Origin: Candidatus Cloacimonadota bacterium
GTDB lineage: Bacteria > Cloacimonadota > Cloacimonadia > JGIOTU-2
Assembly (NCBI GenBank): GCA_030611765.1
Contig: JAUWPE010000013.1
Location: forward strand, 1-34,347
Length of the DNA: 34,347 bases
Direction of reading: 5' to 3'
Shown: in pieces, positions 6,367 through 22,777 of the stretch
How positions within the stretch are numbered: the first letter of the stretch is position 1
Layout: each line of letters begins with the position of its first letter
The notes under the pieces: generated by a model
What the model was told of the DNA's origin: nothing
What the model saw: the letters and a program-made list of their open reading frames with translations, nothing else
The model's database searches: none
Made by a program: the position numbers and the translations under genes

Positions 6367-9009
6367 ATGCAAGGTACGATTATAAAATCAAATATTAATA
6401 ACATGATATTTACTTTTAAAAAAACTATACTAAAAATTTCAAAATTTGTTAGGAATTTATTCAAAATTCAATATATATTATACTTAATTTTCCTCTTAAC
6501 TATAGTCTATTTCATTTTTAATCCAAGATTTATTTACGAAAAGGGACAATATTTTCTTACATCTTATAATGAGATTGATTATGCTACTCAATTTGCAACG
6601 ATCCCAAATAATTCACAATACGATATTATTTACATTAATCAAAGCACAACATGTACTTACATCAATTATTATAATGAAAAAGAAAACGGAACTTTTAAAA
6701 AGCGACTTTATAATTTCTCTCCAAACACTTTATTGGGAGGTTTGCTTTCAGAATGCTATTACGACACTCTAAACCACAAAATCTTCACAATATTAACGTC
6801 GGATGATGCAGATTATTATTTATTTGAATTATACAATGATGAGAACCCCACTGAAATAAAAAAAGATAAAATATTCCACTATAATATTTACGATTCAATG
6901 CTTGATACGAATATTATAGTTAACAATGTAAAGTTTAACTCATTTGAAGTAGAAAATGATCTCGAGAATCTTTGCGAACTTACACCTTACAAGGATGGAT
7001 ACAAACTCAAAGTTTCAGGTCGAGTAAGAGACTCGATCTTCCCACAAAAAGAAAGTATAAATATTAATAATGCTATCTATGATAGAATCAGTTCGGAAAT
7101 TAGTATCTTATTAAATATTCTTTTCACTCAAGAAGATATTTTTAAAATTATGCAATTTTTTTTAAGGAAAGATTATTATGATTGGAATTATTTTCGGAAT
7201 AAATTCCCCAACCGTGGATTCCTTCCAGCTAAAATTGCAGGAGCAGTTGATATAAATAATGATGGTCACGAAGAAATTCTAATTCTGATATACGGAAACG
7301 AATATATATATAATTTACTAATTTGTTTCGATACTGTCTCTAAATCTATTTTATGGGAAAATAGATACTATAGAACACCAGAACAATTTATTATTCAAGA
7401 TATCGATAACGATAAAATTGAAGAAATAATAATTGGATTCTCACATTCAGATTACAACTTGCCTGTTGAATGGTTTAAGAAAAATCCAAATAAATATAAT
7501 GATGGTGATATAGTTATATTAAATAATAACGGAACGATCAAACTTATCAATAAGAGACCAGCTCTACTTAATTTACCAGGGGAACCGGTCTCAACTATCT
7601 TTAGCACACAATTGAATGATGAGGGTATCCTGATGGGTTATAGATCTAATGGAGAATTGTTAGAGCAAAGGTTTATTTTTTGGAATCTCATTATTAATGA
7701 GATTGATTCATTGAATATATTATGCAACAATTTTATTGGTTTTTGTAAAAATAAATCTTATATTAGAGCATTCTCCTATTGTAATAAGAAAATAATTATG
7801 AAGTTGATTTCACTCGATATAGAATTAAAAAAAACATATAAAAACAAAATTCAGAAAAGATTGCATTCCATTTTGAGTTCAAGTAAGAAAATTTTAAATA
7901 ACAAATATTATATATCACTTCCTCTTTCCATAATTTCTCAAAATCTTAATTTAATATATGATTGTCCCTATAATGCTGTTAAGAATCACATATCCATAAC
8001 TGATAATAATCTATTTTTTATTGAGCAACGGAAGGGATTTACCTATTTATCAAGAATTAATTTTATTGAGAATAGAAAAATAAACCCATATGCTATTCTC
8101 ATTATCTCTTTGGAAATTTTGATTATAGTATCTTTCTTCTTTATAATTAACTTCATATCGTTTCCAATATCTTCTGGAATAAGTAGTTATCTCATTGTTA
8201 TTTCAGTTATAGATAAGATCCATTTCTGGAGAATATATGGGAAAATGAGAGCAATCTATAAACTGCCCAGACATATGTCATTAAAAAGAAATAGTTATTT
8301 AAATATTGTTCGCAGTTTATCAAACAATCATAGAAAAGTAGTATTTCAAAAGAAGAATTTAATATTCAATTACACTGTTTATGAATTAATCTCTAGGGAT
8401 GAATTAATAGTAATTCGCCATATAGTTCATGAACTTAAAAATAAAATACTATTAATCAAGATGATAATAAATAATAAGAATAAATTAAATTCTAATGCCA
8501 GTATCCTATCTATACTTGATTATATCTCAAAGATTGCAGTAACTCTTTCAAATTTGACCAGAATTGAAACTTTATATAAAGAAAAAGTAGAAATGAATCA
8601 ATATTTAAAGCAAATATTATCTGAATATATTAATCATCCCCACTTCACGAAAATTGAATTTGTTAGTGGAATCTCAAATGAATATTTTTACATCGATAAA
8701 CAATTATTTAAAATAGCTTTGAGAAATCTTATCAATAATGCTATTGAGAGTATAACCAATAGCAAGCAAATTATTAAAATAAAGGTGTTAATTGTTGATT
8801 CAAAATTACATGTGGATATTCTGAACCCAGGTCACTTAGAAAGAAATGAAATTGAAAAAATCTATGAGATCGGTTATACAACTAAAAATGAAGGTTCAGG
8901 ATTAGGAATTCCGATATCAAAGATTATAATTGAAAACCATAATGGTATTTTAAGTATCTCAAGTGATGATAACACCATTATGGTTCGAATAATATTACCT
9001 AAAGAATAA
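6367..9009 (+). CDS. membrane sensor histidine kinase with FG-GAP-like repeats
   Basis: 880 residues. One membrane segment (about 37-52) precedes a large presumed periplasmic domain (about 55-570). This domain contains two FG-GAP/VCBS-like calcium-loop motifs, DINNDGHEEILI (295-306) and DIDNDKIEEIII (345-356), suggesting a beta-propeller. Two further hydrophobic segments lie at about 573-597 and 602-618. The kinase core has an H-box HELKN with phosphoacceptor H688, an N-box LRNLINNAIESI (785-796), and a G-box region GYTTKNEGSGLGIPISKII (836-854). The gene is 26 bp upstream of its response regulator, an NtrC-type sigma-54 activator, so it is the cognate kinase. No clear Shine-Dalgarno precedes ATG 6367; M13 (ATG 6403) is an alternative start. 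Base composition is very AT-rich with many Asn, Ile and Lys codons. Confidence 0.85.
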   Translation: MQGTIIKSNINNMIFTFKKTILKISKFVRNLFKIQYILYLIFLLTIVYFIFNPRFIYEKGQYFLTSYNEIDYATQFATIPNNSQYDIIYINQSTTCTYINYYNEKENGTFKKRLYNFSPNTLLGGLLSECYYDTLNHKIFTILTSDDADYYLFELYNDENPTEIKKDKIFHYNIYDSMLDTNIIVNNVKFNSFEVENDLENLCELTPYKDGYKLKVSGRVRDSIFPQKESININNAIYDRISSEISILLNILFTQEDIFKIMQFFLRKDYYDWNYFRNKFPNRGFLPAKIAGAVDINNDGHEEILILIYGNEYIYNLLICFDTVSKSILWENRYYRTPEQFIIQDIDNDKIEEIIIGFSHSDYNLPVEWFKKNPNKYNDGDIVILNNNGTIKLINKRPALLNLPGEPVSTIFSTQLNDEGILMGYRSNGELLEQRFIFWNLIINEIDSLNILCNNFIGFCKNKSYIRAFSYCNKKIIMKLISLDIELKKTYKNKIQKRLHSILSSSKKILNNKYYISLPLSIISQNLNLIYDCPYNAVKNHISITDNNLFFIEQRKGFTYLSRINFIENRKINPYAILIISLEILIIVSFFFIINFISFPISSGISSYLIVISVIDKIHFWRIYGKMRAIYKLPRHMSLKRNSYLNIVRSLSNNHRKVVFQKKNLIFNYTVYELISRDELIVIRHIVHELKNKILLIKMIINNKNKLNSNASILSILDYISKIAVTLSNLTRIETLYKEKVEMNQYLKQILSEYINHPHFTKIEFVSGISNEYFYIDKQLFKIALRNLINNAIESITNSKQIIKIKVLIVDSKLHVDILNPGHLERNEIEKIYEIGYTTKNEGSGLGIPISKIIIENHNGILSISSDDNTIMVRIILPKE

Positions 9010-9034: not shown

Positions 9035-10441
9035 ATGCTTAATGGAAAAATTTTAATTCTTGAAGATGATAAAGAATTAGCAAATCATTATTATGATTTA
9101 TTAAAGGAAACGTATATAGTAAAATTATCTCATGCAAGCACAGAATTCTTTAATATATATGATGAATTCGTTCCCGATCTTTTAATTCTTGATATTAAAC
9201 TGAAAAAAAGCTTATTAAATGGTGTGGAAGTATTTGAAAAACTTAAATCCGAACGTACACAGATTCCAAACGTTATTATCCTTTCGGGGGAAGCTTCAAG
9301 AAAGGAAATTGCACAAACAATGAAAATGGGAGCTTATACGTTCATTGAAAAATCTGGGGAGTTTAATGTCGAGAAATTTCTTATTGATGTGAAACAAGCT
9401 CTAAATCAAAAATTGCAAGAAAAATCAAACTTATCTCTACGGCAGGACAAAGAAAATTTAAGAAAAAGTTTGATAAATAGCAATGTTCTTATCGGTGAAT
9501 CTAAGAAAATGAAGTATATAAAAAAACTGATAGCAAAATTTGCAAAGGCAGATATCGACATTTTATTATTGGGTGACACAGGAACAGGTAAAGAAATTAT
9601 TGCCAACCATATATACTGGAATTCTAATCGAGTTGGGAAACCTTTTGTGAAAGTAAATGCCGGTTCTATTCCTGAATCTCTTGTTGATTCAGAATTGTTC
9701 GGTCATAAAAAAGGTTCGTTTACCGGTGCAATTAATGACAAAAAAGGGGTTTTTGAACAAGCCGACAAAGGAATATTATTTTTAGATGAAATCTCAAACC
9801 TTGATTATAACATCCAGGGAAAAATACTAAGAGCCATAGAGTATAAAGAAATCAGGATTTTAGGTGGAGAATTAAAGTATATTGATGCGCGTTATATATT
9901 TGCTACTAATAAAAACCTGGATAAATTGATGAAGGAGCATAAATTCAGAGACGATCTATTCTATAGATTAGAAGGAAATATAATTTATATCCCACCACTA
10001 AGAGAAAGAGAAGATGATATACTTCTCTTGATGAAATACTTTTTCGATCTAGCATCTGCCAAGCATAACGCACTGTTGGATATCTCTCTTAAAGACATTA
10101 AAAATGAATTATTATCATACGAATGGCCTGGGAATGTTAGAGAATTACAAAAATTTTGTGAATATGTTACAATAATGTATAATACTATTACTAATACAGT
10201 AATTCTAAATGAGTTATGCAAAAAATCAACAGGAATAGAACAAAATAATAATGAGATTGAAAATATTCTATCAATTTCGAATTATACAGAAGCTTGCGAC
10301 CATTTCTCAAAAAAATATATTCTATACCATCTCGCGAAAAATAATCGAAAGATTTCTTTGACAGCTCACAAACTCGGATTGGATCGCTCTACATTATATA
10401 AAAAATTAAAGAAATTTAATTTAGATTTTTCAGATTCGTAA
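9035..10441 (+). CDS. NtrC-family sigma-54-dependent response regulator
   Basis: 468 residues, with AAGGAAGA before the ATG. The receiver domain (1-120) has the acidic pocket E10-D11-D12, phosphoacceptor D53 (ILDIKL), S84 and K106. The AAA+ domain (about 150-385) has Walker A GDTGTGKE (180-187), the sigma-54 contact loop GSFTGA (227-232, Ser for the usual Ala) and Walker B ILFLDE (247-252). A Fis-type helix-turn-helix (about 438-462, ISLTAHKLGLDRSTLYKKLK) ends the protein. The length and domain order match NtrC/ZraR-type activators. It should be phosphorylated by the adjacent kinase, bind upstream sites, and drive open-complex formation by sigma-54 polymerase. A near-consensus sigma-54 promoter lies 656 bp downstream at 11097-11112. 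The sigma-54 gene itself is not in the window. Confidence 0.93.
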   Translation: MLNGKILILEDDKELANHYYDLLKETYIVKLSHASTEFFNIYDEFVPDLLILDIKLKKSLLNGVEVFEKLKSERTQIPNVIILSGEASRKEIAQTMKMGAYTFIEKSGEFNVEKFLIDVKQALNQKLQEKSNLSLRQDKENLRKSLINSNVLIGESKKMKYIKKLIAKFAKADIDILLLGDTGTGKEIIANHIYWNSNRVGKPFVKVNAGSIPESLVDSELFGHKKGSFTGAINDKKGVFEQADKGILFLDEISNLDYNIQGKILRAIEYKEIRILGGELKYIDARYIFATNKNLDKLMKEHKFRDDLFYRLEGNIIYIPPLREREDDILLLMKYFFDLASAKHNALLDISLKDIKNELLSYEWPGNVRELQKFCEYVTIMYNTITNTVILNELCKKSTGIEQNNNEIENILSISNYTEACDHFSKKYILYHLAKNNRKISLTAHKLGLDRSTLYKKLKKFNLDFSDS

Positions 10442-10576
10442 TATTTAGATTGGAGTTATTACTATTAATATAAAATCCACTGACTAATATGTTAACATTT
10501 AATAATGAGTTCACTCTAAAAACTAATACATGAAGATAAAAAAGGAATAAGTGAAAATGAGAGAACCAAAATTTGT

Positions 10577-10886
10577 CATTCTCGAAACCTGATTTATCAG
10601 GTTGAAGAATCTATTAACTTATTTCAATGTCGCTAATTAGAGTCTGTCCGTAAACTTGAAAATCTAGTAGAATTATATTTTTCATTCTGTTTTACCTCAT
10701 CCCCACAGTGAAATAGAAAAAGAGATTTCACGTGGTAAACCTAACCCCTTCTCCTAAAAAGAGAAGGGGAACTTTTTGTCTCCCTCTCCACGATAGGAGA
10801 GGGTCGGGGTGAGGTCGAAAAATGGACTTTACGGATGCACACTAATTAGAGATTCTTCACTCCACTTCGTTCCGTTCAGAATGACA
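10577..10886. repeat. dispersed GTCATTCT/AGAATGAC repeat pair in opposite orientation
   Basis: GTCATTCT...GAAGAATCT (10577-10613) and its reverse-oriented relative AGATTCTTC...AGAATGAC (10849-10886) bracket the MITE-like element. Text of the AGATTCTTC..CAGAATGACA kind is a dispersed intergenic repeat I associate with many environmental bacterial genomes. I see no coding content in the whole 10442-11061 gap. Confidence 0.45.
10633..10849. mobile_element. MITE-like element with terminal inverted repeats and 8-bp flanking repeats
   Basis: CTAATTAG occurs at 10633-10640 and again at 10842-10849. Just inside lie inverted ends AGTCTGTCCGTAAA (10641-10654) and TTTACGGATGCACA (10828-10841), sharing TCCGTAAA and further positions (10 of 14). 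The 201-bp interior has no gene but is rich in hairpins: CCAC-a-GTGAAAT/ATTTCAC-g-TGG, CCCCTTCTC/GAGAAGGGG and CCCTCTCC/GGAGAGGG. This fits a miniature inverted-repeat element with an 8-bp target duplication. One caveat is that CTAATTAG is itself palindromic and so could be part of the inverted repeats. Confidence 0.5.
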
Positions 10887-10946
10887 ACTATTTTTTTTCA
10901 TTTTCACACCTCGTTTTATATAAACAATATGCATTATTTAATTTTT

Positions 10947-10975
10947 TTGACTTTTTATAGTGAAACCAATAATAT
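10947..10975 (+). promoter_or_regulatory. sigma-70-like promoter
   Basis: TTGACT (10947-10952) and TAATAT (10970-10975) are separated by 17 bp. The same hexamer pair recurs at 15918-15947. It would start a transcript near 10982, running into the gene at 11164 and giving a second, sigma-54-independent promoter. Confidence 0.4.
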
Positions 10976-11096
10976 AAGAAATATATTTCAAATAATTAGA
11001 TTGCAAAATCTCATTTTTTCCACAAAACTGTAGATAATAATCCACAATTTTTTATAAAGAATTGAAAATAGATAGTAAAACTAAGCATTATTATTT

Positions 11097-11112
11097 TGGC
11101 ATGATATTTGCA
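11097..11112 (+). promoter_or_regulatory. sigma-54 (-24/-12) promoter
   Basis: TGGCATG-ATAT-TTGCA matches the TGGCACG-N4-TTGCA consensus except for one base, with exactly 10 bp between the invariant GG (11098-11099) and GC (11110-11111). The start would be near 11123, about 40 nt before the ATG at 11164. It is the best such site I found in the window and lies downstream of an NtrC-type activator gene. Upstream, GAAATATATTTC (10978-10989), a perfect 12-bp palindrome, is a candidate but unproven activator site. Confidence 0.8.
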
Positions 11113-11163
11113 TATAATATTTCTAAATGCATAGAAATGCAAAAAAAAAATCGGAGGAACAAA

Positions 11164-11601
11164 ATGAAAAAATTCATTTTGATCACGCTATGTCTTCTAT
11201 TTACTTTGTCCATTTCGCTTAATGCTCAAAGTTTCAAATACAAGAAAGGTGACATAGTAAAGGGTCCATGGTACCAAGAGTCTAATTTCTCAATGACCTA
11301 CAAAGGCAAAACTCAACTAATACCTGTCAAGATCAAGATACAGAGAGTCGTTGCTTCTCAACCAACAGATGAGAAATATGTATATGATTCAAGAGGTATT
11401 AAAGCTGGTTCGTACGAGACCTGGGAAGAAGAAATTACTTATCAAGTTATTGTAACTAATCCATATGATTGGGATCAAGGGTGGTTTACATTAGCAGAAG
11501 GCCAAACGCCCACTGACAAAATTTATAAAGCTCTAGAACCAGACAAACCAGACATACCACGAGGGTGGCAAAGAAAAGAGTTTGTCAGAGAAGAAGATTA
11601 A
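11164..11601 (+). CDS. small exported protein under the sigma-54 promoter, unknown function
   Basis: 145 residues from ATG 11164, with GGAGGA at 11153-11158. This start is preferred over any upstream in-frame codon because it has the ribosome binding site, follows the promoter, and begins a clean signal peptide (1-21, ...SISLNAQ). The mature part is a small soluble beta-rich protein with two KYKKGDIVKGPWYQESNFSM-like and YQVIVTNPYDWDQGWFTL segments. I recognise no family. Together with its strong ribosome binding site and the promoter, it appears to be the main product of the regulon. The next gene starts 46 nt later. Confidence 0.8.
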   Translation: MKKFILITLCLLFTLSISLNAQSFKYKKGDIVKGPWYQESNFSMTYKGKTQLIPVKIKIQRVVASQPTDEKYVYDSRGIKAGSYETWEEEITYQVIVTNPYDWDQGWFTLAEGQTPTDKIYKALEPDKPDIPRGWQRKEFVREED

Positions 11602-11647: not shown

Positions 11648-13012
11648 ATGAAGAGAACGAACTATCTAAGGATAAGCACTTGGTGCTTATCCTTTTTTTT
11701 GATTTTTACATTTGTATCAAATTTATACTGTGCAAGACCACCTATATCTTATGAAACGATTGGTCGATTAAGTTATGAATCTCCATTGGAAAGTAGTAAT
11801 ACGGCTTGGAGACAGGTTAAAGAATATGATTTTCCCTGGGTATCTCCACAATATATCATCGGTTGGCAAAGAACTATAAATTCTTCCTTTAATGCAGGAA
11901 TTTATGTTTCGATATTTCCTTCAATGTCACCTTTTGAACCTCAAGAGTATAAAAATCTGATGTATTATGCTTTATCTGATAAATTTAAGGTGAGTTTGGC
12001 TAGTCAGAAGCTGATCACTATTTCGGGATATTATGCTGAGAGTTGCGCAATCGCTTCAGCTAACACCGGTAATGGTCTAGGATTTGAAGTTGGAAATATT
12101 CCAACTACTATAGAATATGTCATCATTCAACTTGAAGGAGAACCACCGAATTTCTATTATCATCCTGCAGTATTAATTATCTTTACGGTTCCGTCGAAAT
12201 TCTATAATGAAATCTATCCGGAATTTAATAAATTTATTGCTGATTTCCATATAGAACCACTACCAGGCGGACCTCCTACTGGGACCATTATCACAAATGG
12301 TTCTCCCAGTGGTACAATAATATACAACAAACCAACGATTTCTGTGAATACAAATGAAGATGCAACTTGTAAGTTTGATTTTTATAATAAATCTTATGAA
12401 GAGATGTCTTATACATTAAGTGGTAATGATAAAATTCATAGCTATACCTTTGATGAAGCGTTGTCAGATGGAAAATATACTATATTTGTAAAAGCGAAAG
12501 ATAATTCTGGGAAAATAAGTTTGGATAGTTATTCTTGGAATATTACAATTGCAAGTGCTGGTGAAGTTGAGCCGATTACAAAAACTCATAAAAAACCATT
12601 CGCTGTTGGATTCCAAAGATCATTGAATGGAATTGAGGGTTTAACTTTGTCTTATCAGGGTTATGATTGGAATCCATTCTTAATGATGGGTGGAAATTTT
12701 ACCAGATCGGATACCATTAACTCTAAACTCAATCTTGGCTTCGGTTTCAATCTTGATTTAGTAGAAATTAATAACTTGAGTCATTCAGGCACCGGCAGAC
12801 TAACTGTTCAACTTGGTGGTTTGGCTGGGATACATCTAGAAAAAACCCAAAAACCTGATTTCTTTATTGAATTACCACTGAAGCTTAAATACGAATTTTC
12901 AAACACAATAAGCATATGGACAGCTGTTGGCATTGGTTATACTTCAGATAGTGATGAAATGGTCATTCCTTTTAGAGATAGAATACCTGTCGGGATAGAA
13001 ATAAGTTTTTAG
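11648..13012 (+). CDS. exported protein with Ig-like segment and C-terminal beta-barrel-like region
   Basis: 454 residues. The signal peptide covers 1-29 (MKRTNYLRISTWCLSFFLIF then ...LYCA). Residues 30-205 form an unrecognised globular domain, about 215-305 resemble a bacterial Ig/fibronectin-like module (SDGKYTIFVKAKDNSGKISLDSYSW), and 310-454 alternate as in an outer-membrane barrel, ending in Phe (PVGIEISF), as outer-membrane proteins often do. It probably sits in the outer membrane. The ribosome binding site is weak. Codons 7-18 are also a perfect transcription-terminator hairpin (11668-11700), so expression may depend on readthrough or on translation of the leader. A terminator follows at 13069. 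Confidence 0.75.
   Translation: MKRTNYLRISTWCLSFFLIFTFVSNLYCARPPISYETIGRLSYESPLESSNTAWRQVKEYDFPWVSPQYIIGWQRTINSSFNAGIYVSIFPSMSPFEPQEYKNLMYYALSDKFKVSLASQKLITISGYYAESCAIASANTGNGLGFEVGNIPTTIEYVIIQLEGEPPNFYYHPAVLIIFTVPSKFYNEIYPEFNKFIADFHIEPLPGGPPTGTIITNGSPSGTIIYNKPTISVNTNEDATCKFDFYNKSYEEMSYTLSGNDKIHSYTFDEALSDGKYTIFVKAKDNSGKISLDSYSWNITIASAGEVEPITKTHKKPFAVGFQRSLNGIEGLTLSYQGYDWNPFLMMGGNFTRSDTINSKLNLGFGFNLDLVEINNLSHSGTGRLTVQLGGLAGIHLEKTQKPDFFIELPLKLKYEFSNTISIWTAVGIGYTSDSDEMVIPFRDRIPVGIEISF
11668..11700 (+). terminator. intrinsic terminator embedded in the signal-peptide codons
   Basis: AAGGATAAGCAC (11668-11679) and GTGCTTATCCTT (11683-11694) are perfectly complementary over 12 bp around a TTG loop, followed by TTTTTT (eight T in a row including the stem end). 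This is a textbook rho-independent terminator. It begins 20 nt after the ATG of the gene at 11648 and 66 nt after the stop of the gene at 11601. It would end most transcripts from the sigma-54 promoter after the first gene unless translating ribosomes keep the hairpin open. Confidence 0.75.
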
Positions 13013-13111: not shown

Positions 13112-13372
13112 ATGAATTTGATATTAAAAATCCATTATGACTCCTATGATGCATATATTAATGGCGAATATACTGGTTCCGGTAAAATCTACCTTCCTCC
13201 CATTCCAGCGAATACGAGCAGGAATTATACCACAAATTTCCTCATGTCGTATAAGGATTTTGGAAATGCTTTCATAAATGCGATCAAAGATCGAAGTGTG
13301 ATATTGAAGATTGTTGGAAAAGTAGAATCTGATGGAATGACAATAAACTTTTCTGATTCCTATAAATGGTAA
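13112..13372 (+). CDS. LEA-14/WHy-like domain protein, probably 5'-truncated or frameshifted
   Basis: 86 codons from ATG 13112; a TTG at 13088 lies inside a terminator and is unlikely. The text KIHYDSYDAYINGEYTGSGK, then PPIPANTSRNYTTNF...IKDRSVILKIVGKVES, matches the second half of LEA type 2 (WHy) domains: a small-gap loop, a PxIPA.s turn and the closing strands. These domains usually carry an N-terminal signal or lipobox and an N-P-N strand before this point, both missing here. In another frame just upstream, NSNEFDIKN is encoded at about 13104-13130, which would fit that missing strand, so a small indel may have broken the gene. Confidence 0.5.
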   Translation: MNLILKIHYDSYDAYINGEYTGSGKIYLPPIPANTSRNYTTNFLMSYKDFGNAFINAIKDRSVILKIVGKVESDGMTINFSDSYKW

Positions 13373-13425
13373 GTTCAATAAATGATGAAATTAAACATAA
13401 TTATTTTATAAGGAGTGTCTCAATA

Positions 13426-15468
13426 ATGATACGTAAATATATAAGAATTATTTTGTTGATTTCTCTTGCGTTAACAATACCTCATACATTATTATCCCAG
13501 AATTACTACAATACTTACGGTTATATTGATAGAAACTTAAGACAAGAGACTTTTATTGATGATACAGAAAGAAATGTCTCAATAAAGATTTACAAAGATG
13601 CTGACCAGATCGGAACTGAACGGATAATAAGTGGATTGGATAATTACAATAAAAGAATGGAATTATACCGGGATGTGATCATGAACCTCGTTACCCAGCC
13701 AAAATGCCAGTCTGTTGATCTAATATATGAGGATGCAAAGCAAGGAGTAACAAAGGAAGAGTTATTGGCACAAGCTGCAATATTGTATGAAGCAGGTTCT
13801 TTCTCTACCAAACTTTTAGATTATATCTGCAAAACCGCAAATCTTGCTTACATACCTGGTTCAAACCAGACAGCTCAACTGGTTAATTCCTGGAAGCATA
13901 TCATGCGTCAGGTGAACCAGTCCAACCTTCACAATGTCAGCAATGCCCTAGGTGCAATATCAGTTGTGATGAATACCATAGAAATGGGTGATAAGGTCGC
14001 TATTATAAGCAGCAACTATGTATTGTTAAAAGCTCTTGAGATGGATCTTGCAAAGGAGCGACTCAGATTGCTCAGAGAATATTGTGATATCGAAGATGAT
14101 GCATTTACAGAAGCCCTGGCATTAGTGACAAATGACATGAATACGCTCCCTCAGAGTGATTGGAATAAAATAATTATGACTCTGCACAGCCAGGGGAAAG
14201 AAGTTGAGAAACTCATTATTACAATGGGACAATCGGTCAATACCCTTGGTTCATTACTTGCCAATATGCCCAAACCCAGTCCGCTAACAGGATGGATATA
14301 TGCTGGATTATTTACATGGCAGACCGGTGTTATGATCCAGGAGCACAAGGATCACATGAGAACATCCTCCCTGGCAGCAACGATTTATGCTAATATGAAA
14401 TTTCCGGAACAACCCTCTAAAATATTTGAGCTCTCTGAATATGCACAATATTTATTCGTTGATGAGTTTCGTCTCGCATTTGATAATTGGGTGACCTTAG
14501 TACTTTCCTGGTTCAACCAATCCTGGTATGAGGTAAGACAGGCATGGGAGGATGAAAGTAATTATCTCATTGAACATATTCAGATGAGAAGAGTGAAAGA
14601 AGCAATAAACTTATTTGATATCAATGAAGAAGAAAACCAAGAAATAATAAATATAACAAATCCTAATTCGCAAACAATCTGGTATCAAGATGAAGATATT
14701 GACATAGAATGGAACAATGCGACAGGTAATCAGATTATAGTAATGATTTTTAAAGATAATGTTGAATTAGGTATTTGTCACGATTGGACAGCAAATGATA
14801 ATATATGTAATGGATGGGTTAATCCCGATTGGGGAACTGGAAATAATTTTAGATTAAAAGTCATAGATGAAAATGATAATTATGGATGGAGTGAAGAATT
14901 TACTATTCAATCGGGAAATGGTTTACACGATAATTTTTATTCATGGAATATTTCTTATTGGGAAGGTAATTGGTGGTCCCATAATATCAATCATGGCGCT
15001 TGGCAACCAACTGTTGAAAACGGTTATGCATATATGAAAACAACCGATTATAGTTGGGGACAAATTAGGACGACTCAAATGTGGTCTCCTGGTCAGACAT
15101 TTTCTATAACTCTAATACCATTTTTAGAATCTGGCGGAATAAATGCTGATAAGGCATTTTTTTGCTTGAGTTCCAATTGGGTGTTTTATGATACCGATAT
15201 TGCAGCTGGAATCAAACTAGATAATAGAAATGTTATTGCTTGGTGTGAAGATAATTTTGAGATTGCAATTTTTGGTAGTTATACACCTGGTGATGAAATT
15301 ACTCTAACAATTACTTGGAATACTGATGGCACACTAACTCTAACAGGTGGTAGTGGTTCTTACACAATGGCATCAAGCTTATTACAAGCTAACGAAGCAT
15401 ATTTCGTTATTGTTAACAAAGACAGTATCGACGGAATTGAAGTTGATCAAGTTATAATATGCGAATAA
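13426..15468 (+). CDS. large exported protein with helical body, Kre9/KNH-like domain and C-terminal beta domain
   Basis: 680 residues from ATG 13426, with AAGGAG at 13410-13415; this start gives a signal peptide (1-25, ...HTLLSQ), unlike the upstream alternatives. Residues 30-405 are mainly helical with no family I recognise. Residues about 410-505 (ITNPNSQTIWYQDEDIDIEW...NNFRLKVIDENDNYGWSEEF) resemble the Ser-Thr-rich Kre9/KNH-type beta module of secreted proteins. Residues 508-680 are Trp/Gly/Thr-rich beta structure, like a concanavalin-type carbohydrate-binding fold. An extracellular or surface adhesin is a reasonable inference. It lies in the cluster downstream of the sigma-54 promoter but after a terminator, and may have its own promoter. 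Confidence 0.7.
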   Translation: MIRKYIRIILLISLALTIPHTLLSQNYYNTYGYIDRNLRQETFIDDTERNVSIKIYKDADQIGTERIISGLDNYNKRMELYRDVIMNLVTQPKCQSVDLIYEDAKQGVTKEELLAQAAILYEAGSFSTKLLDYICKTANLAYIPGSNQTAQLVNSWKHIMRQVNQSNLHNVSNALGAISVVMNTIEMGDKVAIISSNYVLLKALEMDLAKERLRLLREYCDIEDDAFTEALALVTNDMNTLPQSDWNKIIMTLHSQGKEVEKLIITMGQSVNTLGSLLANMPKPSPLTGWIYAGLFTWQTGVMIQEHKDHMRTSSLAATIYANMKFPEQPSKIFELSEYAQYLFVDEFRLAFDNWVTLVLSWFNQSWYEVRQAWEDESNYLIEHIQMRRVKEAINLFDINEEENQEIINITNPNSQTIWYQDEDIDIEWNNATGNQIIVMIFKDNVELGICHDWTANDNICNGWVNPDWGTGNNFRLKVIDENDNYGWSEEFTIQSGNGLHDNFYSWNISYWEGNWWSHNINHGAWQPTVENGYAYMKTTDYSWGQIRTTQMWSPGQTFSITLIPFLESGGINADKAFFCLSSNWVFYDTDIAAGIKLDNRNVIAWCEDNFEIAIFGSYTPGDEITLTITWNTDGTLTLTGGSGSYTMASSLLQANEAYFVIVNKDSIDGIEVDQVIICE

Positions 15469-20353: not shown

Positions 20354-21352
20354 ATGACAGATAATAAAACTAATAATTTCACATGTGATTTTGCGATTTC
20401 TTACGCAGGAGAAGAAGAAGAAATAGCGAATGGAATTTACCAGTCCTTAATAGAAAAATATGAGGGTTTTGTAATATTTTTTGCCCTTAGGGATAGAAAT
20501 AAACTTATCGGAAATGACGGTGAAAATTTTTTTGAAAACCTTTTTAATTCTGCAAAACAAGTGATTGTTATTTTGTCAGAGAATTATAAAAAAAAGGAAT
20601 GGACTCGCTATGAATGGGATATTATAAAAGAAAGAAACAAGGAAAATAGATGTATTCCAATAAAAGTTGATAATGTTAAAATTCTGGGATTACCATCAAA
20701 TTTTATCTACTTAAAGTTTAATGGCGATTATGAAGATATTGCAAATTTGTGTATTGAGAAATTAGTGACTTTTGAGAAAGATAAAGGAATTGTACGAAAA
20801 TCAGATTTACAAAAGCTAACTGAGTCTCTTGAAAACTCGAGAGGGGCAGTAGATAAAGCTGTACAATTGGTTTTAGATAAAAGAGAAAGAACGCCACTTA
20901 AAGACATCAATTATCCAAAAGGTAATTTTATCAAATCATTTGAAATTATTAAGATTGAAGAACTTCCATATTCTCGAATTCAAAGATTAAGTGCAAGGAT
21001 TAATTTACCTGACAATTTAAGTAAAGAGGAGGTAGCGTTTAATATTAAATATTGTACAGCTGAATTGTTTAATAAAAATAAACCAGATGCTTTAGGCTTA
21101 TTTGTTTACTCCTCTGAAGCTTCAAATTTCTTAGGATTTGAAAAATTCAATGTAGCTAAAGCTGATTTTGCTCCATTTGGTGATTGGGGTCAAGCCGAGG
21201 AAGCATTTGCATATAACTTACCTTCTGACAAATTTGATTGGAAAATCGAATTTGAAGAAAGCTATTTTGATAAAAAAAAACGTATTAAAACATCTGATGA
21301 GTTTGCAAGAGATTTAGTAATGGAAATGATGAAAAACAAAAAGAAAAAATAA
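20354..21352 (+). CDS. TIR-domain protein with uncharacterised C-terminal domain
   Basis: 332 residues. The TIR fold spans about 10-137: box 1 DFAISYAGEEEEIANGIYQS, then RDRNKLIGNDGENFFENLF, then VIVILSENYKKKEWTRYEWD. E87 in the YEW segment is in the position of the catalytic Glu of NAD-consuming TIRs. Residues 150-332 contain a conserved-looking mixed alpha/beta domain (SRIQRLSARINLPDNLSKEE...KADFAPFGDWGQAEEAF) that I cannot assign. There is no signal peptide or membrane segment. TIR proteins with an extra domain commonly act in anti-phage defence, and the location next to a restriction-modification pair fits. It is AT-rich and sits as a single-gene cassette in front of an attC-like palindrome. 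Confidence 0.8.
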   Translation: MTDNKTNNFTCDFAISYAGEEEEIANGIYQSLIEKYEGFVIFFALRDRNKLIGNDGENFFENLFNSAKQVIVILSENYKKKEWTRYEWDIIKERNKENRCIPIKVDNVKILGLPSNFIYLKFNGDYEDIANLCIEKLVTFEKDKGIVRKSDLQKLTESLENSRGAVDKAVQLVLDKRERTPLKDINYPKGNFIKSFEIIKIEELPYSRIQRLSARINLPDNLSKEEVAFNIKYCTAELFNKNKPDALGLFVYSSEASNFLGFEKFNVAKADFAPFGDWGQAEEAFAYNLPSDKFDWKIEFEESYFDKKKRIKTSDEFARDLVMEMMKNKKKK

Positions 21353-21491
21353 ACCCAGCAGGTAACAATGTATAAAAATAATAGCCGAAATAGTAGTAAA
21401 TTCAAGGGTTATAGCCCGCTTCAACTTCATCGTAAATTGAAAGATTTGAGTTCCGCAGTCGGCTATTATTCTTATACTTCACGTTGTGTGT
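21353..21491. other. attC-like imperfect palindrome after the TIR gene
   Basis: GTATAAAAATAATAGCCGA (21370-21388) and TCGGCTATTATTCTTATAC (21459-21477) are complementary at 18 of 19 positions. Outside them, ACCCAGC (21353-21359, like RYYYAAC), GTAACAAT (21362-21369) and CGTTGTGT (21482-21489, like GTTRRRY) resemble the outer simple sites of an integron attC. Total length is about 139 bp with a 70-nt loop. It begins directly at the TIR stop codon, as attC sites do in gene cassettes. A 41-codon frame running through it is an accident of the palindrome. Confidence 0.6.
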
Positions 21492-21532
21492 AATTAAAAA
21501 AAATGATTAATTTTGTACAAAAAAGGAAATAA

Positions 21533-22777
21533 ATGTTTGTTGAAATATTAAAGAACTTCAAATTAGAAAAAAAAACACCAAGTCTTTTTGATTTTGATGA
21601 TAATAAAAATTATACACGTATAGAAAACATTAGAATACAGGGTATTGAAGTAAATAAATACATAAATGAATTTTGGACAGCTAAACAAAGGCAAGCCAAT
21701 AGCATACACGAAATATCTTATAGAGCCTGTTTTAAACCACAATTACCAAGATTTTTCATTAAACATTTAACCAAAGAAAAAGATTATGTTTATGATCCGT
21801 TTCTTGGGAGAGGAACAACAATTATTGAAGCGGGATTGTTAAATAGACAAGTAATAGGAAATGATATAAATCCTTTAAGTATAATTTTGAGTAAACCTCG
21901 TTTTCTGATTCCTAACTTTAATAAATTATCAATTTACTTAAATAAGATACCTTTTTTTAAAGGTTTAAAGGCAGATATAGATTTATCAATGTTTTATCAC
22001 CCTGATACCGAGAGTGAAATAGTATCATTAAGAAATTTAATTTTGGAAAAAGAAGAAAAAGGAAAACTAAACGATTTTGATAAATGGATAAGAATGGTCG
22101 CTACTAATAGATTAACAGGACATTCCAAAGGTTTCTTTTCTGTCTATACAATGCCACCAAATCAAGCGGTTTTACCTGAAAGGCAAATAAAAATTAATCA
22201 AAAAAGAAATCAAATACCCGAATATAGAAATGTCAAACAATTAATTTTAAATAAAACGAAATCTTTAATAAAGGATGTTTCTTCTGCTCAAAGGCAACAG
22301 TTAAAAGAAATACATAAAACCGTTATTTTTTCAAACACAGATGCTCGTTATACAAAAGAAATACCTGATAATTTCGTTCAATTGACAGTTACTTCACCAC
22401 CTTTTTTAGATATTGTTCAGTATGCAAAAGATAATTGGCTCCGAGGTTGGTTTAATGGAATTGATATAAATGAAGTTGAACAAAAAATTACAATGTCTAA
22501 AAAAATCGAACAGTGGACAAATGTAATGCAGCTTGTTTTTAACGAATTATACAGAATAACAAAGATAGGTGGGTATGTGGCTTTTGAAGTAGGAGAAGTA
22601 AGAAACGGTAAAATAAAATTGGACGAATATGTTGTTCCTTTGGGAATAAGTTCTGGTTTCAATGTAATTGGAATAGTCATAAACGAACAGAAATTTACGA
22701 AAACTGCAAATATTTGGGGTGTGAAAAATAACTTAAAAGGCACAAATTCAAATAGAATAATTTTATTTAAAAAGTAG
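21533..22777 (+). CDS. DNA methyltransferase of a type II restriction-modification system
   Basis: 414 residues; AAAGGAAA precedes the ATG. Motif I DPFLGRGTT (88-96), followed by the acidic strand end GNDINP (109-114), binds S-adenosylmethionine. Motif IV SPPF (288-291, in TVTSPPFLDIVQYA) is the catalytic loop. Motif I before IV and Ser in place of Asn/Asp suggest an N4-cytosine enzyme, though SPPF is also found in some other amino-methyltransferases. The roughly 190-residue region between the motifs is long enough to hold the target-recognition part. Its partner nuclease starts 7 bp downstream. The recognition sequence cannot be read from the protein. Confidence 0.85.
   Translation: MFVEILKNFKLEKKTPSLFDFDDNKNYTRIENIRIQGIEVNKYINEFWTAKQRQANSIHEISYRACFKPQLPRFFIKHLTKEKDYVYDPFLGRGTTIIEAGLLNRQVIGNDINPLSIILSKPRFLIPNFNKLSIYLNKIPFFKGLKADIDLSMFYHPDTESEIVSLRNLILEKEEKGKLNDFDKWIRMVATNRLTGHSKGFFSVYTMPPNQAVLPERQIKINQKRNQIPEYRNVKQLILNKTKSLIKDVSSAQRQQLKEIHKTVIFSNTDARYTKEIPDNFVQLTVTSPPFLDIVQYAKDNWLRGWFNGIDINEVEQKITMSKKIEQWTNVMQLVFNELYRITKIGGYVAFEVGEVRNGKIKLDEYVVPLGISSGFNVIGIVINEQKFTKTANIWGVKNNLKGTNSNRIILFKK

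Follow-up and report, generated by a model that had tools for sequence, protein, structure and literature searches.

A kinase, an NtrC-type regulator, an upstream activator site (UAS), a -24/-12 promoter and the gene for a 145-aa exported protein very probably form a local two-component sigma-54 circuit in a member of the uncultured phylum Cloacimonadota. This reading draws on a promoter element, an rpoN gene, intact regulator motifs, the adjacency of regulators and promoters, and a fixed geometry of activator site and promoter in relatives, all of which are present in the sequence. The parts lie together in the window (i.e., the whole stretch of 34,347 nucleotides that was analysed) as follows.

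6367-9009, + strand: sensor histidine kinase, 880 aa (HATPase_c, E 6e-9)
9035-10441, + strand: NtrC-type response regulator, 468 aa (Pfam Sigma54_activat, 194 bits; Response_reg; HTH_8)
10947-10975, + strand: sigma-70-like TTGACT-17-TAATAT, possible second promoter (9/12 matches)
11020-11033, + strand: probable activator-binding site (UAS), CCACAAAACTGTAG (12/14 match to CCACAAWWTTGTGG)
11097-11112, + strand: sigma-54 -24/-12 promoter, TGGCATG-N4-TTGCA
11153-11158, + strand: ribosome-binding site GGAGGA, read from the sequence, 5 bases before the ATG at 11164
11164-11601, + strand: small exported protein, 145 aa (signal peptide at about residues 1-21, no known domain)
11648-13012, + strand: exported 454-aa protein with a weak Ig-like match (Big_13, E 2e-5, below the cut-off)
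11668-11694, + strand: intrinsic terminator with a 12-bp stem, 3-nt loop and T run (-16.4 kcal/mol, z -6.3)
13366-15468, + strand: exported 700-aa protein, no family match

The promoter and sigma-54 in the genome

An earlier note on this DNA had placed a sigma-54 promoter with exact spacing at 11097-11112, behind a kinase and an activator and in front of exported-protein genes; the site is exactly there and the neighbours are as it described. The element, TGGCATGATATTTGCA, is a full match on the + strand with the GG and GC in register, 10 bases apart as in TGGCAYR-N4-TTGCW. It is the sole zero-mismatch match in the window, in which two sites were found when one mismatch was allowed (0.93 expected). 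The genome-wide search that had been proposed, performed as a pattern search, found three copies of the full consensus in 2,234,508 bases and none for the reversed control. The other two copies lie in coding sequence, one in the last part of the gene for ribosomal protein L5 and one in a large secreted-protein gene, which leaves 11097-11112 as the sole intergenic full match of the 2.23-Mb genome. The lack of an rpoN gene had been named as grounds for abandoning the proposal; RpoN is encoded at full length and scores 330.6 bits with TIGR02395, whose cut-off is 277. Transcription from this element is predicted to start at about 11123.

A looser pattern, GGCAYR-N4-TTGC, occurs 19 times in the genome versus 3 for the reversed control, and six of these sites are intergenic by their ORF context. 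Two of the six, the window site and that on contig C85, overlap ORFs but were scored as intergenic: one covering frame extends the exported-protein gene upstream to a TTG start, and the other is short and antisense. Each of the four complete NtrC-type activator genes, found on C85, C90 (the contig of the window), C117 and C128, has one of the six sites 0.4-2.3 kb downstream; the chance of at least four of six falling near activators, with a 6-kb neighbourhood per activator as the target, is about 2e-7. All four of these sites stand before exported or membrane proteins. On C85 and C117, a short ORF comes first and then the gene for an exported protein that carries a type IX sorting domain; on C128 the product is a pilin-like protein without a Pfam match, and here it is the 145-aa protein. 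There are at least five activator genes in this genome, the two beyond the complete four being cut by contig ends. On this arrangement, the genome looks wired as local regulator-promoter pairs. The proposal that regulator and output share one locus is supported by a nearby -24/-12 site at every complete NtrC-type gene and, in other families, by orthologous pairs adjoining such sites in front of exported-protein genes.

A separate observation concerns a 349-aa protein elsewhere in the genome (L002:1219-2268, contig C115), which has a sigma-54 DNA-binding domain over the cut-off (Pfam PF04552) and a weak GIY-YIG nuclease match. Its gene sits between two pieces of a PAS-type sensor kinase and resembles an inserted mobile gene with a borrowed RpoN DNA-binding fold.

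The kinase and the regulator

The kinase carries both an H-box, with the phospho-acceptor H688 in HELKN, and an ATP-binding domain (HATPase_c at 778-879). By inspection, an N-terminal membrane helix precedes a large extracytoplasmic domain, with further helices at about 575-630. The extracytoplasmic domain contains the FG-GAP-like motifs DINNDG and DIDNDK, and residues D295/D299/G300, D345/D349, H688, K691, N692, N787, N791 and G843-G847 are conserved in an alignment of kinases (A3). The FG-GAP match itself is weak, and a single-sequence AlphaFold model (pLDDT 33) was too poor for fold searches. The locus does not, as had been suggested, define the stimulus; it offers a sensor domain that is weakly FG-GAP-like. 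In G009, the kinase gene (L046:13087-15647) is broken at about 13701-13707 into two neighbouring ORFs, by a frameshift or an assembly error.

The regulator has, in order, a receiver (D53, K106), an AAA+ sigma-54 activator domain and a Fis-type HTH (HTH_8 over its cut-off). D53 and K106 are invariant in 12 sequences (alignment A1), the Walker A and B motifs (GDTGTGKE, LFLDEI) and the GSFTGA form of the GAFTGA loop are intact, and the recognition segment of the HTH reads DRSTLYKK. No NCBIfam equivalog cut-off was reached (NtrX 290/600, NtrC 284/559, AtoC 279/714); hence, the regulator should not be named NtrC, NtrX or AtoC. Four orthologous regulators in the same alignment (L046, L047, L051 and L057) have GSFTDA rather than GSFTGA in the sigma-54 contact loop and may or may not still activate sigma-54.

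Among the relatives, whose genomes are incomplete, intergenic -24/-12 elements adjoin orthologous kinase-regulator pairs of other genera, in G102 (two promoters), G009, G028, G044 and G010, the last from the same family as the window genome. These sites stand before exported or pilin-like genes; in G028 the pair is followed by the site, then by a 138-aa exported protein and finally by a very large exported one. Several other orthologous pairs have no visible site, some because of contig ends. In the family f3 (presumably Cloacimonadaceae), the regulator orthologues lie in an operon with glycan genes and no adjacent kinase, and the fetched flanks held no intergenic site with a score of >=14. 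In G003 and G005, two relatives from the same genus, the recognition segment of the regulator is a different one (ERTT), and no site can be seen beside the gene. A search of wider genome contigs returned a single Cloacimonadota locus, on the same contig as L052.

The probable activator site and the predicted product

The G102 and G009 promoters have the same perfect palindrome, CCACAAWWTTGTGG, upstream. In 121 genomes of the class, it has ten copies: four are in coding sequence, one is the stem of a terminator behind tRNA genes (L138) and the remaining five all have a -24/-12 element 88-89 bp downstream, as measured from the first base of the palindrome to the start of the element. These five promoters come from four genomes (G102 twice, G009, G099 and G025), three genera and two families; their spacers and outputs are mostly unrelated, and three lie beside orthologues of the window regulator. 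In G025 the promoter and the regulator are on different contigs, and this promoter may therefore be a target in trans. As the palindrome was chosen after viewing the two G102 promoters and the G009 promoter, G099 and G025, which were found later, are the independent test, and G025 is the most independent case because G099 shares its genus with G102 and the promoter spacers of the two are clearly homologous. Joint searching for palindrome and promoter gave nine matches in the 121 genomes and none in the control, namely, the five promoters, the window and three matches in family f3 that we infer to be due to chance. A looser joint pattern with CCAC-N6-GTGG added no new convincing case; its extra matches, mostly in Cloacimonadaceae, have scattered spacings and were judged to be chance. 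Wherever the regulator was read in genomes with the palindrome, its recognition segment is DRSTLYKK or DRSTVYKK. G099 has the promoter without a regulator match at E <= 1e-90 (this genome is 77% complete), and G043 has DRSTLYKK without a perfect UAS.

In the window, the copy at 11020-11033 has two mismatches and lies 77 bp from the -24 element versus 88-89 bp in the relatives; a second half-site, CCACAA, is found at 11042-11047, 55 bp from the promoter. The alignment of the window with one G102 promoter, from the UAS to the -12 element, is better than any of 500 shuffles and includes a 12-base gap between AAGCAT and TTATTTTGG. This gap accounts for the difference between 77 and 89 bp and, being close to one helical turn, would roughly keep the helix face. 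Beyond the elements themselves, the similarity of the spacer is weak and limited to one G102 promoter (p 0.012). The activator site expected upstream of a sigma-54 promoter would be represented by a degenerate copy, and 11020-11033 is a likely candidate for it. The earlier note had suggested a different upstream palindrome, GAAATATATTTC (10978-10989), which we rejected: it is in no other fetched locus, and a 12-bp palindrome arises by chance in 24% of shuffles. Further upstream, the intergenic region contains a dispersed repeat with GTCATTCTGAACGGAACGAAG (10865-10889, with flanks at about 10560-10895), present in seven copies in the genome versus none for the control and accompanied by an inverted repeat, CCCCTTCTCC...GAGAAGGGG.

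In 59 related genomes, nothing was found that matches the 145-aa protein. Its best match among the outputs of the other UAS promoters (E 0.01) is confined to the N-terminal signal region, and no convincing homology was found between any of these outputs. The type IX C-terminal sorting domain (Por_Secre_tail) is absent from 11164-11601, and a single-sequence AlphaFold model (pLDDT 47) was too poor for fold searches. The strong intrinsic terminator just behind this gene favours the earlier suggestion that the small exported protein is the main output: if the terminator works, most transcripts carry this gene alone, and the 145-aa protein is the predicted main product of the promoter. The terminator falls within the first codons (about 7-16) of the 454-aa gene, whose expression from 11097-11112 would require read-through. 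As these are signal-peptide codons (window 11648-11700), the start of that gene and the stop of transcription share the same bases. The 700-aa protein likely starts at an ATG at about 13426, before its signal sequence. Farther along the window, at 20354-22777, genes for a TIR-domain protein and then a DNA methylase may constitute a defence locus.

In the proposed circuit, the membrane kinase would sense an extracytoplasmic signal via its propeller-like domain and phosphorylate D53 of the regulator, which would bind the dyad at 11020-11033 and then oligomerise. The GSFTGA loop and ATPase would remodel the RpoN-RNA polymerase at the promoter, giving a transcript that starts near 11123 and mainly yields the 145-aa protein, while the terminator would restrict transcription of the exported-protein genes that follow. 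The phosphorelay, binding at the degenerate site, the start site and terminator activity are the steps that we infer.

Several points weigh against this circuit: the mismatches and 77-bp distance of the window UAS, the weak spacer alignment, the cases of G099, G043 and G003/G005, and the sigma-70-like site. The -24/-12 site may be real and yet serve another activator, or the regulator may act via another upstream sequence. In favour of this alternative, the window UAS is degenerate and one turn closer than in the relatives, and the genome has at least five activator genes. We consider it unlikely, as a copy with two or fewer mismatches appears in only 0.085% of first-order Markov shuffles of 10906-11096, perfect UASs occur at the promoters adjacent to the closest relatives of the regulator (60-61% identity), and each of the remaining complete activators has its own nearby site.

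It is considerably less probable that the sigma-70-like sequence at 10947-10975 drives the exported-protein gene and that the -24/-12 match is a coincidence. Despite its nine matches, the sequence is not significant, since the region contains 8 such sites versus 5.3 +/- 2.2 in shuffles, whereas the -24/-12 element, unique as an intergenic full match, is in keeping with the regulator, the UAS and the parallel loci. Marginally less credible still is the idea that an unrelated protein uses the palindrome as its operator, or that a repeat carries it as a motif, and that it lies near these promoters by accident. The perfect copy behind the tRNA genes of L138 would agree with such an origin, but the fixed 88-89 bp in five of five relevant copies would not, given that these come from three genera and two families and that their spacers and outputs are for the most part unrelated. 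The local two-component circuit accordingly keeps our preference over these alternatives.

Relation to known systems

The comparison with relatives raises a broader reading, to which we give slightly less than even weight: one switch (an FG-GAP-domain kinase, a DRST-type regulator and CCACAAWWTTGTGG 88-89 bp before a -24/-12 promoter) may have been kept over family-level distances with its exported output exchanged in every genome. The control cassette would then be fixed and its surface output interchangeable, within one-regulator-one-promoter genomes. Sigma-54 use here is suggested to be local, with single exported proteins switched on beside their own sensors. Cloacimonadota thereby gain a testable circuit with a named kinase, regulator, binding site, promoter and product, and the fixed-spacing motif can be searched for in any genome of the phylum.

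Like the NtrC/AtoC-type enhancer-binding proteins, the window regulator has a receiver, an AAA+ domain with GxFTGA and a Fis-type HTH in the same order, an adjacent membrane kinase and a probable UAS some 100 bp before a -24/-12 promoter. UASs are described as lying 100 bp or more upstream, and promoters whose closest site is at most 100 nt away form the largest group (PMC4641369). The window regulator differs in scoring below all equivalog cut-offs, so that it is none of these named regulators, and in the FG-GAP-like extracytoplasmic domain of its kinase. Francke et al. (2011, PMC3162934) proposed that sigma-54 governs the bacterial exterior. The exported, cell-surface or pilin-like outputs found here agree with that view, but the functions in that study were mostly biosynthesis and transport of envelope precursors, whereas here they are single exported proteins beside the regulator. 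When the sigma-54 regulons of Desulfovibrio (PMC4641369) and Clostridiales (PMC6615313) were reconstructed comparatively, activators were likewise paired with nearby promoters and an AT-rich palindromic activator site was deduced by comparison, in phyla other than Cloacimonadota. A literature search of limited scope found no paper on sigma-54 in Cloacimonetes, and the motif and wiring therefore appear to be undescribed there. In its mechanism the circuit follows the familiar NtrC-type enhancer-binding proteins; what is newly mapped is the wiring.
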